Assembly (NCBI RefSeq): GCF_002090135.1
Contig: NZ_BBRL01000009.1
Location: 124,001-188,000 of the forward strand
Source: Demequina sp. NBRC 110055
Lineage (GTDB): Bacteria; Actinomycetota; Actinomycetes; Actinomycetales; Demequinaceae
Length of the DNA stretch: 64,000 bases
Direction of reading: 5' to 3'
Below are positions 31,755-58,278 of this stretch, piece after piece (positions within the stretch are counted from its first letter, which is position 1; each line of letters starts with the position of its first letter). The translations under genes were made by a program, and so were the position numbers. The notes below the pieces were generated by a model, which had not been told where the DNA came from, ran no database searches, and worked only from the letters and a program-made list of their open reading frames with translations.

Positions 31755-31805
31755 GTGGGCATCCCGCCCCGCAAAGCGGGTGGGTGCTTCCCCGGCGTGA
31801 GGAGA
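31755..31805 (+). repeat. Intercistronic hairpins between permease and binding-protein genes
   Basis: The proW-proX gap contains GC-rich inverted repeats, including CCGC/GCGG arms around an AAA loop near 31770-31795. No T tract follows. Such a structure may stabilise the proX message or reduce readthrough, consistent with the higher binding-protein dose of these importers. Confidence 0.4.
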
Positions 31806-31831
31806 TCCCCATGCCGAGAAAGGAAAGACAC

Positions 31832-32755
31832 ATGTTCAAGCGCACTGGAACCGCCTTCGCGGTAGCCGCCACCGCCGGCCTCGTACTCGCCGGCTGCTCG
31901 TCCGCCGACGAGACCACCGAGGAGACCACCGACGCCGCGACCGGCGGCGCCGAGTCGACCGACGAGGCCACCGCGGGTGGCGAGCTCACCCTCGCCGTCT
32001 TCAACGGCTGGGACGAGTCGCTCGCCTCGTCGCTGCTGTGGCAGAACGTCCTCGAGGGCAAGGGTTACGACGTCTCGCTTGAGTACGCCGACCCGGCCGT
32101 CGTCTTCCAGGGTGTCGCCGACGGCGACTACGACGTGGTCACCGACGTGTGGCTGCCCCTGACGCACGCCGACTACATCGACGAGTTCGGTGGCGACATG
32201 GAGGAGCTGGGCGCCTGGTTCGACTCCGCCGCGCTCACCATCGCTGTGAACGCCGACGCTCCAGTTGACTCGCTCGAGGACCTCCCCGAGTACGTGGACG
32301 AAATGGGCGGCCGCATCGTGGGCATCGAGCCCGGCGCGGGCCTCACCGGCGCCACCGAGAAGGCCATCGAGGCCTACGGCCTGGGCGACTACGAGTTCCT
32401 GACCTCGTCGACCCCCGCCATGCTCTCGGAGCTCGACACCGCCACCTCGAACGGCGAGAACATCATCGTGACGCTGTGGGAGCCCCACTGGGCCTACGGC
32501 GCCTACGACATCAAGAACCTTGAGGACCCCCAGGGCATCATGGGTGAGGCCGAAGAGATCGTCACCTACGGTCGCACCGGCCTGACCGAGGAGTTCCCCG
32601 AGGTTGCCGAGTGGTTCGGCGGCTTCACCATGGACGCCGACCACCTGTACGACCTCGAGAACCAGCTCAACGGCGCCTCCGAGGGCGACTACGACTCGAT
32701 CGTGTCGGAGTGGGTTGCCGCGAACCAGGAGTGGGTCGACTCGCTCACCGCGTAA
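31832..32755 (+). CDS. proX: Glycine betaine-binding lipoprotein, ProX/OpuAC type
   Basis: This extracytoplasmic lipoprotein captures betaine and delivers it to ProW. The signal peptide MFKRTGTAFAVAATAGLVLAGC ends in lipobox LAGC. The mature protein (about 285 aa) shows LAVFNGWDESLASSLLWQNV, DVVTDVWLPLTHADYI, IGIEPGAGL-type and NIIVTLWEPHWAY segments, with the tryptophans that cage betaine. AGGA lies 7 nt before this ATG; an in-frame ATG at 31811 also has GGAG upstream, so either start may be used. A strong hairpin follows. Confidence 0.93.
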   Translation: MFKRTGTAFAVAATAGLVLAGCSSADETTEETTDAATGGAESTDEATAGGELTLAVFNGWDESLASSLLWQNVLEGKGYDVSLEYADPAVVFQGVADGDYDVVTDVWLPLTHADYIDEFGGDMEELGAWFDSAALTIAVNADAPVDSLEDLPEYVDEMGGRIVGIEPGAGLTGATEKAIEAYGLGDYEFLTSSTPAMLSELDTATSNGENIIVTLWEPHWAYGAYDIKNLEDPQGIMGEAEEIVTYGRTGLTEEFPEVAEWFGGFTMDADHLYDLENQLNGASEGDYDSIVSEWVAANQEWVDSLTA

Positions 32756-53898: not shown

Positions 53899-54651
53899 CT
53901 AGCCCGCCACCGTGCCGAAGTCCGCGAGGAAGTCGGCCACAAAGTCGTTTGCGGGAGCCTCGGTCACCTCGTCGGGCGTGCCGAGTTGCTCCAGCTCGCC
54001 ACCCTTGGACAGCACGGCGAGGCGGTCGCCAAGGATCACGGCCTCACGCATGTCGTGTGTGACCATCATGACGGTGAGTCCCAGCTGACGCTGCAGCTCG
54101 AGGAACTCCTGCTGGAGGCGGCGTCGCCCCTGCGGGTCCACGGCGCCGAACGGCTCGTCCATGAGCATCACGGGCGGCTCGACCGCGAGCGCGCGGGCCA
54201 CGCCCACACGCTGACGCTCACCCCCGGACAGCTCGTGCGGGTAGCGATTCCCGTACGTCGCGTGCGGCAGGCCCACCAGGTCGAGGAGCTCCTCGACCCG
54301 CGCGCGGGTGCGGTCCTTGTCCCACTTCAGGAGCCCCGGCACCGTGGCGACGTTTTGCGCGACGGTGCGGTGGGGGAACAGCCCCACGTGCTGAATGACG
54401 TAGCCGATGGACCGGCGCAGCTTCACCGGATCCTGACTCATCACGTCGGCGCCGTCGACAGTGATGATGCCGCCGCTGGGCTCCACCAGCCGGTTGACCA
54501 TCCGCAGTGTGGTCGACTTCCCGCAGCCCGACGGGCCGACCAGGCACAGCACCTCCCCCGGCGTCACGGTCAGGCTCAGGTCCCCCACCGCGACGGTGCC
54601 GTCGGGGTACTCCTTGCGCACGTGATCGAAGGCGATGCCGGCGTGATCCAT
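53899..54651 (-). CDS. Osmolyte (choline/betaine) ABC transporter ATPase, OpuCA-like
   Basis: This 250-aa cytoplasmic ATPase has Walker A GPSGCGKST (about residues 39-47), signature LSGGERQRVG, Walker B VMLMDEPFGAVDP and switch VTHDMREA. It lacks the CBS tail of the ProV protein at 29470. VIQHVGLFPHRTVAQNV fits the OpuCA/ProV class. It is divergent from its likely permease genes, starting 95 bp away. The ATG lies 6 nt after TAACGT, so it is probably leaderless. Confidence 0.92.
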   Translation of the reverse strand: MDHAGIAFDHVRKEYPDGTVAVGDLSLTVTPGEVLCLVGPSGCGKSTTLRMVNRLVEPSGGIITVDGADVMSQDPVKLRRSIGYVIQHVGLFPHRTVAQNVATVPGLLKWDKDRTRARVEELLDLVGLPHATYGNRYPHELSGGERQRVGVARALAVEPPVMLMDEPFGAVDPQGRRRLQQEFLELQRQLGLTVMMVTHDMREAVILGDRLAVLSKGGELEQLGTPDEVTEAPANDFVADFLADFGTVAG

Positions 54652-54746: not shown

Positions 54747-55409
54747 ATGGACGCCGTGCCCAACCCGTGGTTCTCGTGGGACTACGTCGAGCGCAACTGG
54801 AGCGAGGTCTCCGAGCAGCTGGTGATTCACACCACGCTGACGCTGCAGGCGATCCTCATCGCGTTCGTGATCGCCTTCCCCCTCGCCGTCGTCGCGCGGC
54901 GCATCCCGCGACTCGCCGGCCCCATCATGGGCGTCTCTGGCGTGCTCTACACCATTCCGTCGTTCGCGCTCTTTGGCCTCCTGGCGCCCTTCACGGGCAT
55001 CGGCCGCACCACGGTGCTGATCGGACTCGTGGCCTACGCGCTGCTCGTGCTCGTGCGCAACATCGTGGTGGGGCTCCAGGGCGTGGACCGCGACGTGGTC
55101 GATGCGGCGCGCGGGCTGGGCTACACCCCGGCGCGCATGCTGTTCCAGGTGGAACTTCCCAACGCCCTGCCGTCCATCATCGCGGGGCTGAGGATCGCGA
55201 CTGTCTCCACCGTCGCACTCGTCACGGTCGGTGTGGTGGTCGGCTATGGCGGGCTGGGCCAGCTCATGTTCCGCGGCCTGCAGTCCGACTACCGCGCACA
55301 GATCATGACGGCCACCCTGCTGTGCCTGGCGCTCGCGCTGGTCCTCGACCTGCTGCTCGCGCTTGCGGGGCGGATGGCTACCCCGTGGCTGCGCAGGAGG
55401 GCGTCATGA
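54747..55409 (+). CDS. Osmolyte ABC transporter permease, OpuCB-like
   Basis: This 220-aa inner-membrane permease has about five to six helices. The coupling loop reads VVDAARGLGYTPARMLFQVELPNALPS, the EAA motif. VSGVLYTIPSFALFGLLAPF matches the OpuCB/YehW class. The leaderless ATG was chosen; a longer in-frame extension upstream would overlap the ATPase gene. It overlaps the second permease by 4 nt. Confidence 0.93.
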   Translation: MDAVPNPWFSWDYVERNWSEVSEQLVIHTTLTLQAILIAFVIAFPLAVVARRIPRLAGPIMGVSGVLYTIPSFALFGLLAPFTGIGRTTVLIGLVAYALLVLVRNIVVGLQGVDRDVVDAARGLGYTPARMLFQVELPNALPSIIAGLRIATVSTVALVTVGVVVGYGGLGQLMFRGLQSDYRAQIMTATLLCLALALVLDLLLALAGRMATPWLRRRAS

Positions 55410-56137
55410 GCCTCATCACCGACGCGTGGGACTACCTCACCACGTGGGAGAACTGGACCGGCGCCAACGGCCTGACCACCGCCACGTTCGACGGCGGCTG
55501 GCGCTTCGCCCAGGACTCGATCATCGCGCTCACCCTCGAGCACCTGTGGATGTCGTTTGCCGCGGTCTCGCTCGCGATCCTCGTCGCGCTGCCGCTGGGG
55601 CTGTTCCTGGGCCACGTGCGCCGCGGCGGCGCCACCACGGTGGTCGTGTCCAACGTGACGCGGGCCATGCCCACGCTGGCGCTGCTCACGCTGTTCGCGG
55701 CCTCGGCCATCGGCTACGGCAACACGGCCGTCATCCTCGCCGCGGCGATCTTCGCCTTCCCGCCCATCCTCACCAACGCCTACACCGGCATGGCCGATGT
55801 CGACCCCGACATCCGTGAGGCGGCCGTGGGCCAGGGCCTCACCCCTCGCCAGGTGGCCCTACGCGTGGAACTGCCGCTCGCGATCCCGCTCATCGCCGCG
55901 GGCCTGCGCACCTCGACCGTGCAGACGGTGGCAACGGTGCCGCTCGCGGCGCTCGTGGCCGGCGGCGGCCTGGGCGTCATCGTGAACACCGGACTCGCGA
56001 CCCAGCGCTACGGACAGGTGCTCGCTGGCGCCATCATCATCGCCGCGCTCGCGCTCACTATCGACTTCGTCATGAGCCGGCTGCAGCGCGCCGTCACCCC
56101 CGCACCCCTGCGCGAGGCGGCGGCGACCGCGGCGTAG
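55406..56137 (+). CDS. Osmolyte ABC transporter permease, OpuCD-like
   Basis: This 243-aa protein is the second permease, with a similar fold and EAA loop IREAAVGQGLTPRQVALRVELPLAIP. An N-terminal soluble segment of about 45 residues precedes the first helix. RAMPTLALLTLFAAS is the conserved helix-3 region. The ATG forms an ATGA overlap with the first permease. The binding-protein gene follows after 199 nt. Confidence 0.93.
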   Translation: MSLITDAWDYLTTWENWTGANGLTTATFDGGWRFAQDSIIALTLEHLWMSFAAVSLAILVALPLGLFLGHVRRGGATTVVVSNVTRAMPTLALLTLFAASAIGYGNTAVILAAAIFAFPPILTNAYTGMADVDPDIREAAVGQGLTPRQVALRVELPLAIPLIAAGLRTSTVQTVATVPLAALVAGGGLGVIVNTGLATQRYGQVLAGAIIIAALALTIDFVMSRLQRAVTPAPLREAAATAA

Positions 56138-56336
56138 AGCCACACACCCAACCGGTCGCGGTCAGCCCCACCCATCCACGGCCGCTGGCGCGACGAACAT
56201 ACGGCGCCAGCCACCGCATCGGCCCTCCGCCTCGCACCGAGCGCGCCGCCCGCTTATGGTGGAAAGGTCCTGGTGGGAACAGAATCGGCGGCGCCTGGGT
56301 TGGTGAGGTTGTCCGTCCCCAATACGAGGAGCATCG

Positions 56337-57368
56337 ATGCACACCCGTCCGTACACCTTGCGTCCGTACACGCTGGCCGCCCTGGCCGTCGCCTCGCTGG
56401 CGCTGACCGCCTGTAGCTCGGGCGGAACCGACGAGGAAAGCCCCACGGCGGGCACCTCCGACGCCCCCGCCACGTCGGAGTCCGCGACCGCAGGCACCGG
56501 CGCCACCGCGCAGGAGTGCCTGCCCGTGCCCGGCGAGCAGCTCGTGGTCCTCGAGGACGACATGATGCTGCAGAACTCCGACAACATCATCCCCGCGCTG
56601 AACGCCGACGCCGCGAGCCAGGACGTCCTCGACGTGCTCGCCGCCGTCTCCGGCGCCCTCGATACCCCCACGCTCATCGAGCTGAACAAGTCCGTCGACA
56701 TCGACCGCCAGACCTCCGAGGAGGTCGCCGAGGCGTGGGTCGAGCAGGCCGCCCTCGACATCGCCGAGTCCGGCGACGGCTCCCTCACCATCGGCGCCGC
56801 GAACTTCTCCGAGAACATCACGCTCGCGGAGATTTACGCCGACGCCCTCGACATGGCCGGCTACGACACTGAGGTGCGCGAGATCGGCAACCGCGAGACG
56901 TACCTCCCGGCGCTCGAGTCCGGCGAGATCGACATCGTGCCCGAGTACGCCGCCACGTTCACCGAGTTCCTCGAGGGCGACGTGGAGACCGCCGTCGCGT
57001 CCGGCGACATCACCGAGACGGTCGCGGCGCTCGAGCCGCTGGCCGAGGAGCGTGGCCTGGTGGTCGGCGAGCCCGCCGAGGCTCAGGACCAGAACGCCTT
57101 CGCCGTCACCCAGGGCTTTGTGGACCAGTACGGCGTGACCACCCTGTCGCAGCTGGCCGAGTCCTGCGGAGGCATCGTCCTGGGCGGTCCCCCGGAGTGC
57201 CCCGAGCGCCCGTTCTGCCAGCCCGGTCTGGAAGACACCTATGGCATCGAGGTCGCGGAGTTCCGCTCGCTCGACGCCGGCGGCCCGCTGACGAAGAACG
57301 CCATCACCACCGGCGAGATCGCGCTCGGCCTGGTGTTCTCCTCCGACGGAGCGCTCGCCACGAGCTGA
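56337..57368 (+). CDS. Circularly permuted osmolyte-binding lipoprotein, OpuBC/OpuCC type
   Basis: This 343-aa lipoprotein (lipobox LALTAC, cysteine about residue 26) binds the solute for the two permeases upstream. Its mature part is permuted. Residues 61-140 carry QLVVLEDDMMLQNSDNIIPAL and DTPTLIELNKSVDIDRQ, which in OpuBC-type proteins form the C terminus. Residues 148-343 carry the family's N-terminal start, LTIGAANFSENITLAEIYAD, through LGGPPECPERPFCQPGL to the final GLVFSSDGALATS, where the family normally continues into VLEDD. The C-terminal segment is thus moved to the front. Both lobes appear complete, so binding should be preserved. Confidence 0.9.
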   Translation: MHTRPYTLRPYTLAALAVASLALTACSSGGTDEESPTAGTSDAPATSESATAGTGATAQECLPVPGEQLVVLEDDMMLQNSDNIIPALNADAASQDVLDVLAAVSGALDTPTLIELNKSVDIDRQTSEEVAEAWVEQAALDIAESGDGSLTIGAANFSENITLAEIYADALDMAGYDTEVREIGNRETYLPALESGEIDIVPEYAATFTEFLEGDVETAVASGDITETVAALEPLAEERGLVVGEPAEAQDQNAFAVTQGFVDQYGVTTLSQLAESCGGIVLGGPPECPERPFCQPGLEDTYGIEVAEFRSLDAGGPLTKNAITTGEIALGLVFSSDGALATS

Positions 57369-57392
57369 CGGCTCCCCGAGAGACCGTCCCAC

Positions 57393-57429
57393 GAAGGCCC
57401 GACCGCCGCTGAGAGGTGGTCGGGTCTTC
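57393..57429. terminator. Terminator hairpin between binding-protein and tetR genes
   Basis: A 12-bp stem with one G-T pair (57393-57404 with 57418-57429) closes a 13-nt loop between convergent genes. Confidence 0.7.
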
Positions 57430-57467
57430 GCGTGTCTGGAGCGGCTCACGCGTGGTGCCGCGCCGGG

Positions 57468-58037
57468 CTAGTGGCGCGGCAGGCCGGTGACGGCCGATGC
57501 CGCGGCGAGGAACGACTCCACCACCCGGTCGGCGCCGTCAAGGTAGCCGCCCACGAGCGCGGCGTCGCGCAGCAGCACCAACTGTGCGGCGGCGCCCGCG
57601 GGGTCCTGGACGCCCGCAGCCTCAGCGGCCTGCTCGAGGCTCTGGCGGAACCACGCGCGGTGGGCGTCGATCAGTTCCCTCACCTCCGATGCCGGATCCG
57701 GGTACTCCGCAGCCGCGTTGATGAACGGGCATCCGCGCGTGTGACGCTGCGCGATGTCCTGGGCGATCGCGAGCACCGCGAGACCGAGCTGCTCCTCGGG
57801 TGGTGCCGCAGCGGCCTGCGCGGCGAGTGAGCGAATCCCGGCGTCCTCGCCTCTCAGGTACGCGAGCACGAGCCCCTCCTTGCCCGCGAAGTGGCGGTAC
57901 AAGGTGGCACGGGGCACGCGCGCCTCGGTCACAATGCGGTCCACACCGACCGCGTGGATTCCCTCGTCATAGAACAGGGCCGATGCCGTCGCGAGCAGCC
58001 GCTCACGCGGGCTCTCGCTGGGGCTGGGCGGGGTCAT
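57468..58037 (-). CDS. TetR-family regulator
   Basis: This 189-aa repressor has an N-terminal helix-turn-helix (ERLLATASALFYDEGIHAVGVDRIV and VPRATLYRHFAGKEGLVLAYL) and a C-terminal ligand domain with GCPFINAAAEYPDPASEVRELI, the pattern of the TetR group that often controls divergent hydrolases. The ATG at 58037 was chosen because TAGCAT lies 7 nt upstream; ATG at 58046 is an alternative. Two matching palindromes at 58052 and 58173 suggest it represses itself and the hydrolase gene. Confidence 0.9.
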   Translation of the reverse strand: MTPPSPSESPRERLLATASALFYDEGIHAVGVDRIVTEARVPRATLYRHFAGKEGLVLAYLRGEDAGIRSLAAQAAAAPPEEQLGLAVLAIAQDIAQRHTRGCPFINAAAEYPDPASEVRELIDAHRAWFRQSLEQAAEAAGVQDPAGAAAQLVLLRDAALVGGYLDGADRVVESFLAAASAVTGLPRH

Positions 58038-58044
58038 GGTTGCC

Positions 58045-58050
58045 ATGCTA
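58045..58050 (-). promoter_or_regulatory. Putative -10 element for leaderless tetR
   Basis: TAGCAT on the minus strand is 7 nt from the tetR ATG and abuts the operator at 58052. Confidence 0.5.
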
Positions 58051-58051
58051 G

Positions 58052-58067
58052 TGGAACGTTCGTTCTC
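58052..58067. promoter_or_regulatory. TetR operator 1
   Basis: The site TGGAACGTTCGTTCTC matches 14 of 16 positions of the reverse complement of operator 2. It lies directly upstream of the tetR -10, so bound repressor would block that promoter. Confidence 0.65.
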
Positions 58068-58172
58068 TCCGAGGTATGCCGCGGCGTCGTCGTGCACGTC
58101 CGTCTAGCCAGGTAAAGACCCATTCTCGGAACCTACACCGAGAAAGTGCGGAGAGTGCGGAATGAACAAGGT

Positions 58173-58188
58173 GAGAACGAACGTTCTC
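58173..58188. promoter_or_regulatory. TetR operator 2
   Basis: GAGAACG-AA-CGTTCTC is a perfect 7-bp palindrome with a 2-nt centre. It lies 91 nt before the hydrolase start. Confidence 0.65.
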
Positions 58189-58278
58189 CCTCATGTCCAG
58201 GTCAACCGATCCGGACATCAGGGGCCAGAAAGGCCCACCCCGGGACCGTCCGGCCCCCGACAGCAAAGGATCACCGCC

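Follow-up and report, generated by a model that had tools for sequence, protein, structure and literature searches.

Positions 56337–57368 (+ strand) of the 64 000-nucleotide stretch of DNA analysed here (the window) encode a 343-aa solute-binding lipoprotein with an OpuAC domain, which the initial annotation took for a natural circular permutation of an OpuBC/OpuCC-type binding protein. Is the domain complete, with its two ends exchanged, and if so, how often and by what route could such an exchange have come about? The coordinates and reading frame of the gene proved correct. For the description of chain order we named four blocks, A (residues 148–279), B (280–307), C (308–343) and D (61–140), which follow one another as A-B-C-D in canonical proteins. 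The window protein reads D-A-B-C, an order that we call P1; relatives that read B-C-D-A and C-D-A-B are designated P2 and P3 respectively.

A complete OpuAC domain in swapped order

We compared the protein with the OpuAC profile (PF04069), which the whole chain matched with 131.2 bits (gathering cut-off 21.2), the match falling in two stretches. Block D (56517–56756, +), the ∼80 residues at the N-terminal end of the domain, matched profile positions 187–257 when searched alone (E 5.6e-10, 39.7 bits), and these positions are the canonical C-terminal end. Residues 148–343 alone matched positions 2–184 (E 1.6e-27), that is, the rest of the family in its normal order. Both assignments had been proposed in the initial annotation, and together they account for nearly all of the 257 profile columns. 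At the genome level the 187–257 match again lay upstream of the 2–184 match on one strand, and not in the canonical domain order.

In a search with a 271-column HMM of canonical order, columns 197–269 were matched (E 4e-22), followed by columns 3–196 (E 7e-75). This places the cut at 196|197, with no block lost or doubled, and bears out the earlier statement that all sequence elements are present. The same HMM delimits a seam linker (residues 141–147; 56757–56777, +) between the former C and N termini of the domain. Behind it, profile matches place block A (56778–57173, +), the canonical N-terminal part, then block B (57174–57257, +), at whose start the P2 relatives are cut, and block C (57258–57365, +), which begins at the P3 cut of relatives and ends at the P1 cut.

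When the protein was aligned with A. fulgidus ProX, residues 150–314 fell on ProX 8–172 and residues 69–138 on 201–271; single solved sequences match the moved segment weakly, though at the right position (A. fulgidus ProX: 14.2 bits, independent E 0.23). Chance similarity was rejected on the E-values of the separate-segment and canonical-HMM matches. A six-frame scan of 55901–58200 found neither a second copy of the tail segment, whether at the protein's own C terminus or elsewhere near the gene, nor a remnant of it, and returned one chance match (E 6) apart from the two genuine matches; each half is present once, and their order is swapped. Profile matches, structure prediction and phylogeny thus support the conclusion that the window protein is a natural circular permutant and that its cut differs from the one already known. 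Orthology with OpuBC or OpuCC, by contrast, found no support: the sole NCBIfam family matched was OsmF, at 60.1 bits far below its cut-off of 400.

Two further features of the window concern the same sequence or the same family. An open frame of 451 aa (56094–57449, −) runs antisense to the binding-protein gene and is probably a by-product of high GC content. The genome's only other PF04069 match is an OpuA-type binding protein with its OpuAC domain in canonical order (31805–32755, +).

The permutant is predicted to keep the fold

An AlphaFold2 model, for which the input was 52 rows (the window protein and 51 of 80 named loci), had a pLDDT of 93.9 and a pTM of 0.89; its top Foldseek match was A. 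fulgidus ProX (E 7.3e-8). In VIA-align, canonical ProX, YehZ, OpuBC, EgtU and their kin (4ne4, 3mam, 4wep, 3r6u and EgtU entries among them) aligned only within model positions 85–283, corresponding to A-B-C, with Z-scores of 11.5–14.6, whereas B. subtilis OpuAC (2b4l) aligned over positions 1–215, corresponding to D-A, with the best VIA score of all (Z 16.9). Such complementary partial matches are expected of a permutation with another cut, and the model that the initial annotation had called for is therefore in line with its reading. The permutant is predicted to keep the fold of the family.

The P1 cut lies between strands 330–334 and 69–71 of the model. Referred to the same strands, the P2 cut immediately precedes strand 280–284, and strand 306–311 begins at about the P3 cut. 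From the type II binding-protein fold we infer that all three cuts lie in lobe II. The join had earlier been placed in the loop between the last strands of the second lobe; its position between two strands agrees with the model, and its assignment to that lobe follows if the type II fold applies.

P1 and other permuted orders among relatives

P1 is no lone oddity, and other permuted orders exist in the same family. The order sought in related genomes was found, as a colinear P1 match, in at least 39 of 297 genomes of the order sample, including all 23 of the window's genus (its own genome among them), in at least 15 of the 296 genomes of the class sample and in at least 2 of the 396 of the phylum sample; permutant counts in these three samples are lower bounds among the matches listed. 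A sample of close relatives gave P1 in 22 of 25 genomes of the genus, again with the window's own included. Within that sample, genome G007 has P1 in contig pieces, G005 (85% complete) has a canonical-order relative, L032, instead, and G009 showed a match to the signal peptide only and none to the domain.

A scan of named genomes found 504 stretches, 430 of which were relatives, and the best 80 were kept. Each of these 80 matched a 292-residue P1 query from residue 8 or earlier to residue 286 or later. They include Sanguibacter, Actinotalea, Promicromonospora, Cellulomonas, Demequina, Luteimicrobium, Myceligenerans, Micromonospora, Georgenia, Isoptericola and other genera, and one locus lies on a complete chromosome (NZ_CP045529.1). 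The closest of the 51 named rows compared was that of Demequina sediminicola (77%), and the window probably comes from a Demequina. Against five congeners dN/dS was about 0.03–0.31, well under 1, which indicates purifying selection on the P1 gene. One P1 locus, L160 (73% to the query), comes from a metagenome bin titled ‘Proteobacteria bacterium’, through either transfer or mislabelling of the bin. A divergent P1 protein without the cysteines that correspond to 288 and 294 is encoded at L150 (G089:C1:2525500-2528900), and its genome carries a canonical copy (L248) as well.

Orthologues in Actinomycetota are cut at two other loops, giving P2 and P3. The phylum sample (396 genomes) held P2 in at least 12 genomes (the one in G369 being ended by its contig) and P3 in at least 3. 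Further P2 proteins were found in the class sample (L283 and L284, the latter in a one-contig genome) and in another search (L148 and L149). P2 proteins align with A. fulgidus ProX over 134–273 and then 5–133, a clean cut, which corresponds to profile columns 130|131; the P1 cut of the window protein comes 66 profile columns later. Identity between orthologues of different order reaches about 70% (P2 L073 against canonical L053). At L148:270-2552 (−, in G693) and L149:627-2705 (+, in G759) an OpuAC domain in P2 order precedes PG_binding_1 and Polysacc_deac_1 domains; a putative cell-wall deacetylase would here carry a solute-binding domain.

The first classification gave 48 P1, 15 P2 and 3 P3 proteins, one of the ‘P2’ (L028) being a contig fragment of a P1 gene. 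The later total was 130 distinct P1, 90 canonical, 16 P2 and 4 ‘P3’; the cysteine counts below use the earlier 119, 69, 14 and 4. True P3 proteins number three (L060, L063 and L145), since the fourth, L154, is a P1 gene ended by its contig that was filed as P3 in the cysteine, pocket and seam counts.

Operon slot, binding pocket and a new cysteine pair

The protein begins with a signal peptide and lipobox (LTAC, with Cys26 as the lipid-anchor cysteine; 56337–56414, +), followed by a low-complexity linker (residues 27–60; 56415–56516, +), both recognized in the sequence. The lipobox rule, set up for this analysis, was satisfied by 114 of 119 P1 proteins. Upstream in the same operon are two ABC permease genes with BPD_transp_1 matches (54747–55409, +, E 3.4e-18, and 55427–56137, +, E 1.7e-21), and a ProV-like ABC ATPase gene is oriented divergently (53899–54651, −; best NCBIfam match TIGR01186, 297.6 bits, below the cut-off of 326.6). 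The lipobox and the adjoining permease and ATPase genes fit an ABC importer with a lipoprotein receptor.

Relatives of every block order keep the gene succession permease–permease–binding protein. A permease lies upstream of the binding protein in 111 of 120 P1, 36 of 40 canonical, 6 of 6 P2 and 5 of 5 P3 locus records, counts that leave out loci L078–L157 and include duplicate records, the five P3 records being three genes. A divergent ATPase, as at the window, also occurs at L244 and L245 (both P3) and at L246 (canonical).

On the pocket side, Tyr204 is present in 68/69 canonical, 119/119 P1, 13/14 P2 and 2/4 P3 proteins, Phe taking its place in the other two P3 rows. The figures for Arg186 are 63/69, 119/119, 14/14 and 3/4, and for Arg291 59/69, 119/119, 8/14 and 4/4, in the same sequence of orders; the P3 set of four in the pocket and cysteine counts includes the contig-ended P1 protein L154. 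Of the aromatic cage of ProX, which we take to consist of Tyr63, Tyr111, Tyr190 and Tyr214, Tyr63 is kept as Tyr204, Tyr111 corresponds to Asn253 and Tyr214 to Ser81, and Tyr190 falls outside the alignment; these correspondences point to no particular ligand.

Two cysteines are invariant in P1. Cys61 (56517–56519, +), just before the moved segment, and Cys277 (57165–57167, +), just before block B, are both present in all 119 P1 proteins. At the column of residue 277, cysteine occurs in 0/69 canonical and 0/14 P2 proteins, and L154 is the sole member of the P3 set to have it there; a cysteine within two columns is found in a single canonical protein (L033). Cys288 and Cys294 (ECPERPFC; 57198–57218, +) are also found in 58/69 canonical and 13/14 P2 proteins. 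They have been lost together in two of the 119 P1 proteins, both of which keep 61 and 277. Such joint keeping and loss fits two disulfides, 61–277 and 288–294, and the candidate pair Cys61–Cys277 is probably a new disulfide in P1, at the new tethered terminus.

How many permutations?

Before trees were built, all rows were rearranged to one common block order. The trees leave out L028, L144, L154 and 25 further P1 rows, the careful tree additionally 16 long-branch or distant rows (L145, L148 and L149 among them), and they held no row for B. subtilis OpuAC. Canonical order was taken as ancestral because it is common to archaeal ProX, OpuBC, YehZ and EgtU. In a quick tree of 107 rows there were seven changes among the four orders (one for P1, four for P2, two for P3), and a 65-row tree likewise gave seven. 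In the careful tree (91 rows) P1 forms a single clade (100/95), to which the canonical proteins L027, L029, L064, L069 and L077 are joined at 100/97; P1 is thus one clade nested among canonical-order orthologues. Strongly supported branches force P2 into three places (bootstrap range 3–3), and the two P3 rows of this tree form one clade. The tree may also contain reversals to canonical order.

The AU test rejected a single clade for the 11 P2 rows that the careful tree contains (p 0.00096) and for the three P3 rows (p 1.2e-7). It did not reject a union of the two larger P2 groups (L073, L079–L082 with L083, L138–L141; p 0.33), nor the placement of L113 with L148 and L149 (p 0.257). The AU tests support at least five changes of order, a figure whose P2 part is affected by a seam motif that P2 proteins share. 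The phylogeny supports a single origin of P1, two origins of P3 and no fewer than two of P2, provided that P2 did not acquire its front half by transfer.

The shared motif, [ILV]AS before an LVLGGPPE-like stretch at the new N terminus, occurs in 13 of the 14 readable P2 proteins (for example L073, L138, L113 and L284). AS stands at the same place in 8 of 64 readable canonical proteins, six times as [ILV]AS; the pattern was readable in 14 of 16 P2 and 64 of 91 canonical proteins. This seam could reflect shared descent, recombination or constraint. P2 might have arisen once, its B-C front half having then spread by transfer and recombination, in which case there were fewer independent permutations than the tree suggests. 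Agreeing with this, a single P2 clade is not rejected on the B-C block alone (66 columns; p 0.38), a block that also splits P1 and P3. On the D-A block (60 rows, 13 of them P2, with L283 and L284 added), however, the AU test strongly rejects P2 monophyly (lnL difference 162). In addition, AS is present in canonical proteins that include L123, the closest relative of L113, the D-A seam linkers differ among P2 groups, and L148 and L149 lack the motif (L149, which was not pattern-readable, as judged by eye). We therefore regard a single origin of P2 as possible but rather unlikely.

Origin of the permuted order

With the block order and completeness of the protein, its confident predicted fold, its place beside two permeases, purifying selection and the descent of P1 as one clade in hand, we propose, with a probability of roughly 86%, that the gene encodes the lipid-anchored binding protein of an osmoprotectant-type ABC importer with D placed before A-B-C, that the permutants arose via fused tandem copies, and that the protein still binds solute, its tether having moved to lobe II and being stapled by Cys61–Cys277. 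The most likely route would start from a tandem duplication and continue with fusion of the copies and trimming downstream of the old signal peptide. Once the two copies of the binding-protein gene had fused, copy 1 would have lost its opening portion next to the signal peptide, and copy 2 its closing portion. The lipid-anchored receptor would continue to hand its small solute to the two permeases, binding and delivery being kept. The lipid tether would now enter at lobe II rather than at the start of lobe I, and in P1 the disulfide would staple this new entry point.

Tandem precursors exist. At L238 (G538:C3:53500-58500) two adjacent canonical binding-protein genes lie behind one permease pair, and at L287 (G921:C48:33500-36500) two canonical genes stand in tandem in the same frame with one in-frame stop between them, the second being divergent. 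Both were rejected as fusions, since they are tandem whole genes. Domain tables of the ORFs of the classed loci showed no fused or partly duplicated intermediate and no ORF with a block present twice, so it is the tandem genes that point to the duplication route. By eye, several P2 D-A seam linkers resemble the Gly/Ser-rich linker behind the lipid cysteine of canonical relatives.

An alternative route is fission and fusion, in which two once-separate genes are joined in another order, a textbook route to circular permutation according to the available text of PMC3320104. No split genes stood out in the classed loci, whereas tandem whole-gene copies did; this is a weak point, and it leaves fission and fusion improbable. 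Even less can be said for P1 being the B. subtilis OpuAC permutation, inherited by or transferred into Actinomycetota. OpuAC is a permutant of the same superfamily and gave the model its best VIA score, but its order differs and, in trees without an OpuAC row, the sister group of P1 consists of canonical actinobacterial proteins; the different cut refutes such inheritance for P1, and we see hardly any chance for it. That the swapped order stems from faulty assembly or annotation, or marks a relic in decay, might be suggested by the two congeners with a canonical-order relative (G005) or no domain match (G009). It is at odds with the occurrence of P1 in 23 of 23 and 22 of 25 genomes of the genus in the two samples, with the near-full-length colinear matches of all 80 loci kept, one of them on a complete chromosome, with the dN/dS values and with an intact signal peptide and operon, and we consider its probability negligible.

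We further raise, tentatively and with slightly less belief than doubt, the idea that one operon slot in Actinomycetota is a hot spot for permutation. The chain would have been reopened at three successive loops, seven or more independent times, each time moving the anchor from lobe I to lobe II with pocket and operon much the same, and with a disulfide pinning the terminus in P1. If so, membrane tethering would be the selective reason for the change in chain order.

Comparison with known systems

Most known natural circular permutations link remote pairs of proteins between which the path can no longer be traced. The nearest known case, B. subtilis OpuAC (2b4l, 2b4m, 3chg, 5nxx), is likewise a naturally permuted OpuAC-domain protein. 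Its order was read via the canonical protein at 31805–32755, residues 165–287 of which align with chain positions 8–130 and residues 58–160 with 164–266. It is B-C-D-A, the P2 order, cut before block B at 130|131, whereas the window protein is D-A-B-C, cut at 196|197; the earlier claim that the join differs from the known one holds. The precedent then named, L. lactis OpuA against ProX, has to be replaced by B. subtilis OpuAC: L. lactis OpuAC (3l6g) is canonical and colinear with the 31805–32755 protein, and was rejected as a permuted precedent on that alignment. A text search for ‘permut’ gave no match in the available text of its paper (PMC2861598).

The closest solved relative by sequence is A. 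fulgidus ProX (1sw1, 1sw2, 3mam; E 1.8e-15), with which both segments align; they do so in swapped order because ProX is canonical, and two of its tyrosines, 111 and 214, are replaced in the window protein. OpuBC and OpuCC of B. subtilis, YehZ/OsmF of E. coli and EgtUC share the fold over A-B-C and the kind of importer but, unlike the window protein, have canonical order. Outside this family, Tp0684 (MglB-2) of Treponema pallidum is naturally permuted and lipid-anchored, and the available text has its authors propose a reason connected with tethering (PMC4990184); it belongs to another class of binding protein (Type I/Cluster B) and, as far as that text goes, has another cut. CPSARST identified circular permutation among the glycine betaine-binding proteins 2b4l, 1r9l and 1sw1 (PMC2395249), in what the accessible part presents as a structure-level comparison of remote proteins, without an actinobacterial family or the P1 or P3 cut. 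DNA methyltransferases, a different protein, are described in the available part of PMC3320104 as a family with documented permutation intermediates; in the present family, the orders differ within one orthologous operon slot.

Permuted binding proteins were thus already known from B. subtilis OpuAC, CPSARST and Tp0684. Among the papers that searches of the open-licence PMC literature brought up, none describes, as far as the available texts show, permuted actinobacterial OpuAC-family proteins, the P1 and P3 cuts or repeated permutation in one slot, so that these cuts and the repetition appear to be new. Comparisons that depend on chain order detect only part of such proteins, which matters for annotation, and permuted binding proteins may be usable as sensor scaffolds. 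Orthologues of canonical and permuted order, as much as about 70% identical, occupy the same operon position, so that the origin and the order of steps become open to direct test, as do the effects of moving the lipid tether and of gaining the new cysteine pair. Set beside the remote pairs known elsewhere, the family offers a natural experiment in which the chain, rearranged at several points, has changed its order and kept its predicted fold.
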